From: Halovivax cerinus
GTDB lineage: Archaea > Halobacteriota > Halobacteria > Halobacteriales > Natrialbaceae
DNA length: 64,000 nt
Assembly (NCBI RefSeq): GCF_024498195.1
Contig: NZ_CP101824.1
Coordinates: forward strand, 3,782,001 to 3,846,000
Reading direction: 5' to 3'
How positions within the stretch are numbered: position 1 is the first letter of the stretch; every line of letters begins with the position of its first letter. Shown here piece by piece: positions 7,155 to 10,285 of the stretch. A program made the translations under genes and the position numbers. The notes under the pieces are model-generated. The model saw only the letters and a list, made by a program, of their open reading frames with translations. It made no database searches and was not told the DNA's origin.

Positions 7155-8669
7155 TCACCGGCAGGACCGGGTAGCGAGTTCGTGGGGTATCGGCGCTCCA
7201 ACGGGGCCGTTCGCATCGACGGATTGATCGACGCGATAGAGCGTCACCGACTCGACGTCTGACGGCGCTCGATCGCAGGCGTACGCTACCGCCGCGCCCG
7301 CGACCGCGTCTCCGGCTCCCCTGGCTTTCGAGCCGTACCGCCGCCAGAGCGTGGACGGGTACCGGTCCATGGCGTCGGCCGGTCGATCGAACGTGGCCGG
7401 ATCGCCGGTCACGAGATCGACGGTCGCCCCTGACGACGTCGTCGCGGAGGCGACGTACCAGTGTGAGGTCGACTGCGGGTTCGGTGCGAAGAACGCCCAG
7501 CTCGCACTGGCGAGTGGCCCCTCGTCGTCGACCGCCGGCGTCTCGACGACGTCCGCCGCGACGAGTTGCCAGCCGCCGACGACGACGAGCGAACTGACGA
7601 GCGCGGCGGCCGTCGCCACCCTGGCACCCGTGTGAACGGCGGGTGGGAGGTCGGGACTCGGTACTCGCCGCGATCGGGGGGTCCCTCCCTCCCGGTCGGT
7701 GATCGTCCCGAGTCCGGTGTTTTGGATTCGATCACTGACGAACCGATCGACGGGGTCCCAGACGCCAGACGGCAGATACGGACACACCGCGACGATCATC
7801 ACGAACGGGAAGGCCCCGAGTTGCATGGTCAGCGCCATGCCGAGGTGGGCACCGACGTACGCGCCGACGATCGCGATTCGGAGGCGTCCAGTGAAGACGA
7901 TCAGCCCCACCGACGCCGTAAGCGTCCCGATCCAGAGCCAGTTGATCACCGTGAGTACACCGGGGGACGCCGCGAGGGCTGGCCCGAGCAGGTAGACCAG
8001 CTCCGCCAGTCCGAAGATCTGGCGGACGGCGACGCCGCGCATCCAGGCGTCGCTCTGGAATTTGAGTGCGGCGTTGATCGCGTAGATCACGACGACGTGG
8101 ACCAGCAACACGGCCGTCGCCGTCGAGACGTATCGGTTCGAACCAGCCGAGAACCGATCGGTCGGTCGCGGGCCGCGAGGACGCACGGCCCATCGACCGT
8201 CGAGCGGGAGGAACGCGGCGAGCGCCAGCAGCGAGATCAACACGGTGTCGCCGCCGTTGACCAGGTACGGGTTCCGCGCGTACATCGAGATCAGGAGTGA
8301 AGCCAGGAGGACCGACGCGATCCGCGAGCGGTATCCGACGAGGACACAGCCGGCCACGAGCACCGTGATACCCATCAACACCGCCTGGACCCACGCAGCG
8401 CCGCTCACCGCGTGGAGTGACCAGCGGACGAGCGCCGGTGACACCTCGGCGAGGGTCGACCGCGGGAGCACACCCCGATCCGTGTAGAAGGTCCCGATCC
8501 CCGGAACGCGAAAGACGAGCAGGTCGAACAGCGCGACCAGCCCGAGACCGATGCGATAGGCCGCGATAGCCCGGATGTCGATCCCGAGCCGAGCGGTCAC
8601 TGCAGAGGGGACGCGCGATCGGACACTCGCCCCGACGTCGAACCACCCATCGGACTGAATGCCCGCCAT
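7155..8669 (-). CDS. HTTM domain membrane protein (vitamin K carboxylase-like membrane domain)
   Basis: A 504-residue polytopic protein. The cytosolic start 'RLGIDIRAIAAYRIGLGLVA' followed by 'GTFYTDRGVLPRS' is characteristic of HTTM proteins, which share the membrane part of vitamin-K-dependent gamma-carboxylase. Several helices follow (for example 'VLLVHVVVIYAINAALKFQS', with the conserved W-x-x-G-V-A/R-Q after it). A soluble region with 'WAFFAPNPQSTSHWYVASA' sits in the last third; 'FAPNP' is common in this family. Whether it carboxylates anything is not known in archaea. It is transcribed away from the tRNA array and ends convergent with the zinc-finger gene. Confidence 0.8.
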   Translation of the reverse strand: MAGIQSDGWFDVGASVRSRVPSAVTARLGIDIRAIAAYRIGLGLVALFDLLVFRVPGIGTFYTDRGVLPRSTLAEVSPALVRWSLHAVSGAAWVQAVLMGITVLVAGCVLVGYRSRIASVLLASLLISMYARNPYLVNGGDTVLISLLALAAFLPLDGRWAVRPRGPRPTDRFSAGSNRYVSTATAVLLVHVVVIYAINAALKFQSDAWMRGVAVRQIFGLAELVYLLGPALAASPGVLTVINWLWIGTLTASVGLIVFTGRLRIAIVGAYVGAHLGMALTMQLGAFPFVMIVAVCPYLPSGVWDPVDRFVSDRIQNTGLGTITDREGGTPRSRRVPSPDLPPAVHTGARVATAAALVSSLVVVGGWQLVAADVVETPAVDDEGPLASASWAFFAPNPQSTSHWYVASATTSSGATVDLVTGDPATFDRPADAMDRYPSTLWRRYGSKARGAGDAVAGAAVAYACDRAPSDVESVTLYRVDQSVDANGPVGAPIPHELATRSCR

Positions 8670-8747
8670 GGTGACGTGTGATCGAGGAGACGGTTTGCAG
8701 GCAGCCTATATGTGTTTTCCCGTTCCCGGCCGAAGATTGTCGACATC

Positions 8748-9366
8748 GCGGACCGGGATTTGAACCCGACTGTGAGATGGTCGCTCACTGCGTTCGCGCT
8801 GCGACTCGCGTGCTTCAAATCCCGTTATCGAGCACGTTCTCCTCCCTACGCTCTCGAAAAGTGCGCGGACCGGGATTTGAACCACGTCCAGACGTTCCGG
8901 GTCGTTCGCTCCGCTCACGTCCCGGGCTGCGACTGGTCTGATTCGAATCCCGTTGTCGAGTACTTTCTCCTCGCCTTCGCTCGTCGAAAAGTACGCGGAC
9001 CGGGATTTGAACCGAAATCAGACGTTCGTGCTCGCTTCGCTGCGCGCGCTGCGACTGATAGGGCACAAATCCCTCCGTCACCCATTCGCTCCTCACGTCC
9101 GTTCGTCGCAGAATGCGCGGACCGGGATTTGAACCACGTCCAGACGTTCCGGGTCGTTCGCTCCGCTCACGTCCCGGGCTGCGACTGGTCTGATTCAAAT
9201 CCCGTTGTCGAGCACGTTCTCCTCCCTACGCTCTCGAAAAGTGCGCGGACCGGGATTTGAACCGAAATCAGACGTTCGTGCTCGCTTCGCTGCGCGCGCT
9301 GCGACTGATAGGGCACAAATCCCTCCGTCACCCATTCGCTCCGCACGTCCGTTCGTCGCCGAATGC
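8748..9366 (-). repeat. Tandem array of tRNA-Gly 3'-end copies with internal inverted repeats
   Basis: The 19-base 3' part of the adjacent tRNA-Gly gene (plus-strand GCGGACCGGGATTTGAACC, some copies ending AC-C-A or AC-C-G) recurs at 8748, 8865, 8995, 9117 and 9245, then in the tRNA itself at 9367. Spacings are 117, 130, 122, 128 and 122 bases. The units alternate: type A at 8865 and 9117, type B at 8995 and 9245, the two AB dimers being nearly identical; 8748 is a third type. In every unit the leading GGGATTTG(AA) is answered by an inverted (TT)CAAATCCC about 55-65 bases later (8814, 8942 with one change, 9066, 9194, 9316). All copies are downstream of the tRNA and in its orientation. No protein gene is supported here. 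Confidence 0.85.
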
Positions 9367-9434
9367 GCGGACCGGGATTTGAACCCGGGCCATGAGCTTG
9401 GAAGGCTCAGGTCCTGCCACTAGACCATCCGCGC
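9364..9434 (-). tRNA. tRNA-Gly (anticodon UCC)
   Basis: On the minus strand the 71-base sequence begins GCGCGGA (5' acceptor), continues with D-arm TGGTCTAGTGGCAGGA, anticodon stem TGAGC/GCTCA with loop CTTCCAA (anticodon TCC, plus-strand 9400-9402), T-arm CCGGGTTCAAATCCCGG and ends TCCGCGC plus A. All stems pair. CCA is not encoded, as usual in haloarchaea. A TTAA-containing stretch about 26-35 bases upstream (near 9462-9470) could be its TATA element. Its 3' end seeds the repeat array at 8748-9366. Confidence 0.95.
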
Positions 9435-9616
9435 TCCACCAGCGGGTTGTCGGTACTCGGTTAAGAGACTTCTCTTTTCTGGGAGCGGGCGGGCGTCGGT
9501 ACGCCGGCGCCGCTTCGACTCTCGGTCCCTCCCGAACGGCCGGCGGCCGACCGACGGGAGCGATGACCGTCACGGTGTCGCACACTGGACGGGACGCCGT
9601 CGGCCCCGAGGCCGGT

Positions 9617-10285
9617 TCACGGAGCGCCCGCGACTCGGGCATAGCAGTTGCCGCTCGACACCTCCCACTCGCGGAGCTGGAGGTCGCTCTCCGCGAGGTC
9701 CGATTCGAACGCTGCGGGCGCGTAGACGTGGTAGAACCGATCGACGGTCTCGCCGCCAGGAAGCGTCCACTCGATCGATGTATCGAAGCCGCTCTCGTCG
9801 GACGCCGACGCGTCCTCGAACCGGTCGTGGGCGGTGCTCCAGGCGCTCACCAGGGCGCGGCCGTCCGACGTGAGAACGCGTGCGAGTTCGTCGAGACTGC
9901 GACGGCGGAGGGTTCGCGTCGGCAGGTGATGCAGCGTCGCGACGTAGACGGCCAGATCGACCGCGTCGGTCCGGAGCGCCAGCGACGCAGCGTCGCCCTG
10001 GACGGGTGACAGAGTATCCAGAAAGTCGTTGGTCCGCGCGCGTTCACGACCGGCGTCTAGCAACGCGCGACTCGCGTCGACCCCGACGACACGGTCGACG
10101 TGACCGGCGAGTACCTCGGCGTGGCGGCAGTTGCCACACCCGAGATCGAGACCGCGATCGAACGTCCGTTCGCGCGTCACGTCCGCGACGAAGTCGTCGA
10201 CCTCGGGCCAGGCGTACTCGCGCGTCGTCGCGAAGTGGCTCCCGATGCGTTCGTACGTGTCGCGGACGTCGCGCCGGTGTGGCAT
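9617..10285 (-). CDS. Class I SAM methyltransferase, Trm9/ALKBH8-like
   Basis: A 222-residue protein. The N-terminus 'TYERIGSHFATTREYAWPEV' closely follows the Trm9 signature (Y-x-x-I-A-x-H-F-x-x-T-R...W-P), and 'GLDLGCGNCRHAEVL' is the SAM-binding motif I. 'VVGVDASRALLDAGRER' gives motif II, and 'VDLAVYVATLHHLPTRTLRR' resembles the Trm9 'hHi...RR' element. Eukaryotic Trm9 methylates the side chain of wobble uridine (mcm5U) in tRNA and needs Trm112; a Trm112 homologue is encoded at 26562. An archaeal wobble-uridine role is inferred. It sits directly upstream of the tRNA-Gly(UCC) gene on the same strand. Confidence 0.75.
   Translation of the reverse strand: MPHRRDVRDTYERIGSHFATTREYAWPEVDDFVADVTRERTFDRGLDLGCGNCRHAEVLAGHVDRVVGVDASRALLDAGRERARTNDFLDTLSPVQGDAASLALRTDAVDLAVYVATLHHLPTRTLRRRSLDELARVLTSDGRALVSAWSTAHDRFEDASASDESGFDTSIEWTLPGGETVDRFYHVYAPAAFESDLAESDLQLREWEVSSGNCYARVAGAP

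Follow-up and report, generated by a model that had tools for sequence, protein, structure and literature searches.

Tandem repeats built on the 3' end of a tRNA gene have been described in tyrT/tyrV of E. coli, where 178-bp units lie directly behind the tRNA and each is closed by a copy of its 3' end. At tyrV, three end copies are found at 178, 356 and 534 nt, and the trailer gives an annotated small RNA, rttR. Integron attC arrays, such as the VCRs of about 125 bp, are made of imperfect-hairpin cassettes that are shuffled as whole units, and the REP/REPIN and MITE repeats are short, non-coding, palindromic, dispersed and presumably moved in trans. Furthermore, integration in archaea takes place mainly at tRNA 3' ends, where the haloarchaeal SNJ2 has a 13-bp att (PMC8371274). 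Elements targeted by integrases of the SSV, SNJ2 and pNOB8 types duplicate the tRNA 3' end and leave the tRNA intact.

The array described here lies behind a tRNA-Gly(UCC) gene in the window, that is, the whole stretch of 64,000 nucleotides that was analysed, and its units (called here cassettes) resemble each of these systems in part. They share the tandem plan of tyrT/tyrV, whereas the E. coli repeats are limited to a single operon without spread over isotypes, carry a 19-nt copy that includes the encoded CCA and have no closely matching inverted arm (2 mismatches in 9 at best); an identity with rtT was rejected on the copy and the arm, together with the lack of sequence or Rfam homology. 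With the SSV, SNJ2 and pNOB8-type elements they have in common the landing place, the duplicated end and the intact tRNA, but they are 100-180 bp long, bear neither integrase nor cargo, form a hairpin with tracking arms and have another block length. Unlike REP/REPIN and MITE repeats, they are confined to tRNA 3' ends, with outer arms of host sequence, a duplication of about 21 nt and fixed tRNA borders. The resemblance to integron arrays is one of behaviour, the cassette boundary being the host tRNA end and not a family-specific attC core, and neither an integron integrase nor a coding cassette lies between the copies in the arrays read. As the known families considered each depart from the cassettes in a defining property, the latter apparently form an undescribed family, and no earlier description of them was found in the openly accessible literature that was searched.

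The array behind tRNA-Gly(UCC)

The tRNA-Gly(UCC) gene is encoded on the minus strand at 9364-9434 (ARAGORN; Rfam RF00005, 68.3 bits), so that the array (8745-9363) lies on its 3' side in transcription order. The first unit begins directly past the last tRNA base, on the same strand, and the 3' end of the gene, G53-N73, is the repeated block. The original prediction had listed five extra copies of this end, spaced by 117-130 nt, and five units of 122, 128, 122, 130 and 117 nt are indeed present, each closed by TTCAAATCCCGGTCCGCGCA with 0, 0, 1, 0 and 2 mismatches, respectively. The block itself had been given as 19 bases; the repeat is real, but its length had to be corrected to about 21 nt.

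Unit 1 (9242-9363) has a type B core, with the tRNA-end copy at 9242-9261, a long hairpin, H2, at 9253-9322 and a short one, H1, at about 9323-9363; it is matched with E=5e-13 by R2, the covariance model of the unit hairpins used for genome searches. Unit 2 (9114-9241; copy 9114-9133, H2 9125-9202, R2 E=4.5e-12) has a type A core. Unit 3 (8992-9113; copy 8992-9011 with 1 mismatch, H2 9003-9072) is of type B and a near-duplicate of unit 1, as unit 4 (8862-8991; copy 8862-8881, H2 8873-8950), of type A, is of unit 2. Unit 5 (8745-8861; H2 8756-8822, E=2.3e-9) carries a third core type and the most diverged copy (8745-8764, 2 mismatches). All five units are on the minus strand. Read from the tRNA, the order is thus B-A-B-A followed by a diverged fifth unit: the alternation that had been predicted as A-B-A-B was recovered, but not its order, nor did it include the third core type. 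Repeats of 159 nt (96%) and 119 nt (95%), 250-252 nt apart, relate units 1 and 3 and units 2 and 4, which supports the proposed growth of the array by duplication of a dimer. Also as predicted, an inverted CAAATCCC is present in all units of the array and forms a long hairpin.

No genes are found within the units, and only chance ORFs cross 8745-9363. Open frames of 87, 182 and 127 codons (8678-9260, 8815-9198) cover the repeats on both strands; such chance frames may get annotated as proteins. In an Rfam scan of 8500-9700, the tRNA alone scored above the gathering threshold and rtT was not matched.

Anatomy and fold of the cassettes

Behind other tRNAs, the units follow the same plan: H1, then H2, composed of an inverted piece of the host tRNA, a shared core and a direct copy of the tRNA end, of about 21 nt (type I) or about 14 nt (type II). 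In 198 units, identity to the host tRNA rises from 0.30-0.36 at positions 49-51 to 0.79 at 52, 0.93 at 53 and about 0.97 at 54-73, the inner values being biased upward since this block served to pick the units. CCA is absent from the copied block. The base after the tRNA or the copy, which opens the unit ahead of H1, is a pyrimidine in 196 of the 198 units, mostly within CTT or TTT. Units measure 99-176 nt (5th-95th percentile), and 99-178 nt in the genome that contains the window.

H2 is a single long regular hairpin. Its outer stem, P1, joins the inverted T-arm to the tRNA-end copy; the middle stem, CCAG(T.T)CG/CG(T)CTGG, leads to a CAG/AC loop and a variable stem, and beyond a tandem GA/GA loop a GNA triloop closes the hairpin on two base pairs. 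The T-T mismatch is conserved, as are the two internal loops, CAG/AC and tandem GA/GA. Among 28 aligned hairpins, 90.9% of the cells are paired compared to 78.0% in shuffled alignments, and double changes are found in 78 cells compared to 23.7 after shuffling. For 150 model matches, in an alignment fitted to the model, these pairing values are 90.2% and 76.0%, with a covariation of 0.356 versus 0.142. Bases just beyond the tRNA-derived block, position 52 for example, are joined to the inverted side by pairs of several types, which indicates that the partner of this side is the unit's own copy and not the tRNA itself. Over the first eleven pairs of P1, read on the tRNA-sense strand, 106 G-T wobbles were counted versus 23 A-C mismatches, in an alignment that is fitted to the model and in which the tRNA copy fixes one of the two arms; this excess suggests that the tRNA-sense strand is the one that folds. 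Together with the conserved mismatches, the strong covariation indicates a selected single-strand structure on that strand, and part of the covariation could come from palindrome correction instead of selection. The H2 fold is also strong when computed as RNA; GNA triloops and tandem G-A pairs are known to be very stable in DNA. It should be noted that a reading of the hairpin as a C/D or H/ACA guide or a k-turn was set aside by eye only, the GA/GA loop being symmetric and no C/D boxes being seen.

The arms of H2 track the host tRNA whereas the core does not. Over 9 nt, the inverted arm is the perfect complement of its own copy in 62 of 166 units and differs by one mismatch in another 53, while perfect arms occurred in 2 of 2160 shuffled interiors (counted on 108 units). 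Rare T-loops are matched by their arms at Gly-CCC, Lys and Leu-CAA (TTCAATTCC/GGAATTGAA, TTCAAATCG/CGATTTGAA and TTCGATCCC/GGGATCGAA). Core segments, by contrast, are 88-96% identical behind different tRNAs, with the arms switched, as for Ser-UGA and Val-UAC (93%), Glu-UUC and Cys-GCA (96%) or Lys-UUU and Asp-GUC (94%). H1 segments are shared as well (Leu-UAG and Gly-CCC, 93%; Glu-UUC and Glu-CUC, 94%), and H1 and core re-assort within arrays, as seen at tRNA-Asp. The copied acceptor part, which lies outside the hairpin stem, is no less conserved than the stem part.

A second type of cassette was found at the tRNA-Arg(GCG) of Halorubrum, where a unit of about 96 nt has GTCCTGACG, the reverse complement of the acceptor end (CGTCAGGAC), as its inverted arm and is closed by a copy of about 14 nt. 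At Ala-CGC, Arg-CCU and Leu-UAA of other genera there are likewise units that end in a copy of the acceptor end, and these three have the core TCGCAAACNCTTCGNGTTTGCTCA in common; the inverted acceptor arm fits with 0-1 mismatches at Ala-CGC and Arg-CCU and only within 3 at Leu-UAA. Since type II tracks the acceptor strand, the combination of a shared core with host-derived arms is seen twice, on different tRNA segments.

Distribution and turnover

With the dimer as query, matches were obtained in 35 of 41 genomes (the window's own genome and relatives), at 23 places in the own genome, and all of the roughly 40 loci matched first lie behind tRNA genes. Units follow tRNAs for Gly, Ala, Ser, Val, Glu, Leu, Lys, Arg, Ile, Asp, Cys and Thr, and wherever copies were read the repeated end is that of the host tRNA. 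In the own genome, 43 units are carried by 24 of the 41 tRNA genes, or 29 when decayed and displaced units are included; two congeners have units at 21 of 43 and 20 of 40 tRNAs. The covariance model gave 43 good matches in the own genome, decayed units at Val-CAC and Arg-GCG among them. Forty of these are directly behind tRNAs and the remaining three behind tRNA ends displaced by inserted elements (Thr, 11 kb; Phe, 51 kb; Tyr, 18 kb), so that a scatter over unrelated intergenic sites, as for REPINs or MITEs, is not observed. The idea that these three were orphan units away from tRNAs was accordingly dropped, and two further matches (E about 0.9) were judged to be chance. In other genomes, all of the 30 best model matches adjoin a tRNA.

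The original prediction had proposed to search haloarchaeal genomes with the units and a covariance model. Among 295 genomes of the phylum, this model recovered the family in 51 of the 53 belonging to the same order and in none of the 242 outside it. Halobacterium salinarum DSM 3754, with four sites, is among the carriers, as are Natrinema, Natrialba, Natronorubrum, Halorussus and Halorientalis. Chance is excluded as a source of the downstream copies, as only 2 copies (with up to 3 mismatches) were found in 250,640 positions upstream of tRNAs. About 30 tRNAs each in two non-haloarchaeal genomes and in one low-GC haloarchaeon without model matches showed no genuine copies, four apparent ones in control genome G048 being neighbouring whole tRNA genes. 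A tRNA-derived repeat family with a hairpin, which the original prediction had kept as its alternative, is thus supported by the many isotypes, the spread over the order and the strong covariation; the prediction would have been given up had the array proved to be slippage in one strain, neither conserved nor covarying, and both conservation and covariation were found.

Some tRNAs are without units: none was found at tRNA-Ala(UGC), tRNA-Ser(GCU) or tRNA-Leu(CAG) in three congeners (G000, G001 and G004). As Ala(UGC) usually lies within the rRNA operon, co-transcribed or operon-internal tRNAs may be barred. One contig of Natrialba hulunbeirensis has two tRNA-Gly(UCC) loci with an N at the repeated tRNA/H1 segment of each, and both look like assembly artefacts caused by the repeats.

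Whole cassettes appear, vanish and reorder faster than species split. At orthologous tRNAs of three congeners, the unit counts are 5, 2 and 0 for Gly-UCC and 3, 0 and 2 for Asp; the look at tRNA-Gly(UCC) in close relatives that had been proposed thus found units in one congener and none in the other. At Arg-UCG and Ala-CGC, the flank past the last copy of the filled locus aligns with the flank past the tRNA of the empty one, from 2-8 nt off the tRNA end, a comparison in which gain and precise loss look alike. At the Halorubrum tRNA-Arg(GCG), the cassette orders I, II, I-II, II-I and II-II are all present; a tree of 19 species shows 8 changes in the type of the first cassette, which differs in all four of the strongly supported sister groupings. 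Last copies carry more mismatches than first copies (1.89 versus 0.61, p=2e-5), and the inverted arm is nearer to the tRNA than to its own decayed copy.

Origin of the cassettes

Our explanation, held with confidence and doubt in about equal measure, places the array in a gene-less haloarchaeal family, the "tRNA-tail cassettes", which would probably be small non-autonomous mobile elements. The repeated tRNA ends may act as exchange points, and unequal recombination between them would duplicate, delete and reorder cassettes; the B-A-B-A array of the window could then be a duplication intermediate, as unequal exchange gives. For array growth, ordinary recombination is sufficient, whereas core transfer between isotypes needs a further step beyond exchange at the tRNA-end repeats. 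Now and then, a core might arrive at a different tRNA gene; it would probably move as a small, non-autonomous element with a tRNA-sense strand that folds, as RNA or single-stranded DNA, and is recognised by a putative recombinase. This recombinase would insert the element at tRNA 3' ends, duplicate G53-N73 and leave the tRNA intact. Neither such an enzyme nor a circular form nor a transfer from donor to target was observed. More tentatively, the cassette may be mobile and refit itself, both outer arms being templated from the target tRNA on insertion, so that one core could colonise every isotype, with the help of a putative recombinase or polymerase of haloarchaea that would work on the tRNA-sense strand in its folded state.

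A functional trailer RNA would be just as compatible with the strong structure and the sense orientation. According to this alternative, which is possible although we would not expect it to prevail, the cassettes are read through as pre-tRNA trailers, H1 and H2 being RNA hairpins for processing, termination, decay protection or a small RNA, and both the fold and the match to the tRNA are maintained by selection. It would account for units that are always downstream and in sense orientation, for covariation and conserved internal loops, for the wobble bias on the tRNA-sense strand and for the presence in 51 of the 53 haloarchaeal genomes sampled, and the comparable tyrV trailer of E. coli is indeed the source of a small RNA. 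However, orthologous tRNAs of sister species often have no unit or another one, about 30-40% of the tRNAs of the own genome have none, and distal copies degenerate, with the inverted arm still matching the tRNA instead of its own copy; this rapid gain and loss and the distal decay argue against an essential trailer RNA. The conservation of the acceptor part outside the stem also speaks against it, and the searchable published transcriptome papers on H. volcanii do not mention such a class, which is an absence of mention only. A conditional RNA role of the cassettes is possible.

Palindromes are known to become perfect through template switching, and the cassettes might be a neutral by-product. 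They would then be short tandem duplications at the ends of tRNA genes, which recombination between the 20-nt repeats homogenises and in whose imperfect palindromes template switching keeps the inverted arm and the stems matched, with neither mobility nor function. We consider this improbable. The changes seen in arrays, which are duplications, losses and reorderings of whole units, agree with it, but mismatches would be erased by correction, whereas the T-T mismatch and both internal loops of H2 (CAG/AC and tandem GA/GA) have been kept, which argues against pure palindrome correction. Moreover, the core is homologous between isotypes and genera, and nothing similar is found behind the tRNAs of two other genomes of the phylum.

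Integrated elements do occur at the same tRNAs. In the own genome (G000, contig C1), an element of about 18 kb with a tyrosine integrase gene near its right end splits tRNA-Tyr from its unit (2066000-2087000), and the flank past the empty tRNA-Tyr resembles that past the displaced unit, so that both allelic states seem present in one genome. At tRNA-Phe, an element of about 51 kb (1782864-1834251) has a repeated core of 13 nt, CCGGGAGGCGGCA, with T-loop-like inverted arms, GTTCAAATG and GGCATTTGAAC, near its two ends. At the tRNA-Gly(UCC) of Natrinema ejinorense, a 2.4-kb element with a fragmentary integrase-like frame and a tRNA repeat end of about 43 nt lies between the tRNA and the unit. 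These integrated elements leave repeats of 13 nt at tRNA-Phe and tRNA-Tyr, a 12-nt core in a longer match at tRNA-Thr and about 43 nt in N. ejinorense, and since they sit between tRNA and unit, the unit was there first. An equation of the 21-nt block with an attB of SNJ2 type was set aside as no more than a lead, as the T-loop-like inverted arms are present at the tRNA-Phe element only and missing at the Tyr and Thr ones. The cassettes themselves have the duplicated tRNA 3' end (G53-N73) at both borders and an intact tRNA, as integrative elements do, but with 99-178 nt and chance ORFs only they hold no recombinase gene, and they were not found as virus, plasmid or free element. The unit patterns and the query matched none of 2.9 million viral contigs and 50,697 phage records, and plasmid matches were found only beside a whole tRNA (Natronorubrum bangense) or a partial tRNA-Glu (Natrinema thermotolerans). 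The latter plasmid (CP031304.1, about 235.3 kb) carries the 3' part of tRNA-Glu followed by a complete unit, which indicates that units can travel with tRNA-derived attachment sites.

The reading first favoured, a row of att sites regenerated by small integrase elements, is therefore unsupported in its ordinary form, the units being gene-less, without viral or phage match and different in block length. That each copy is the trace of an integrase-bearing element that later lost its cargo is very unlikely: tRNA 3' ends are used by archaeal integrases, as for SNJ2, elements reside at these tRNAs and the plasmid joins a partial tRNA-Glu to a unit, but the units are uniform in size (99-176 nt), structured and repeated across isotypes, the blocks of real elements have other lengths (12-13 nt or 43 nt) and the units are older than the elements.

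If the cassettes are what we propose, nearly every haloarchaeal genome has very active, apparently undescribed repeats behind many of its tRNA genes, and Halobacterium salinarum and the other haloarchaea with such sites make this reading testable. They would offer a natural system in which to study cassette exchange at specific sites or insertion directed by a template. Pre-tRNA trailers may then be affected, as may the annotation of genes close to tRNAs (the array is crossed by ORFs of 80-180 codons), and the cassettes could bear on how tRNA ends turn into hot spots of genome change.
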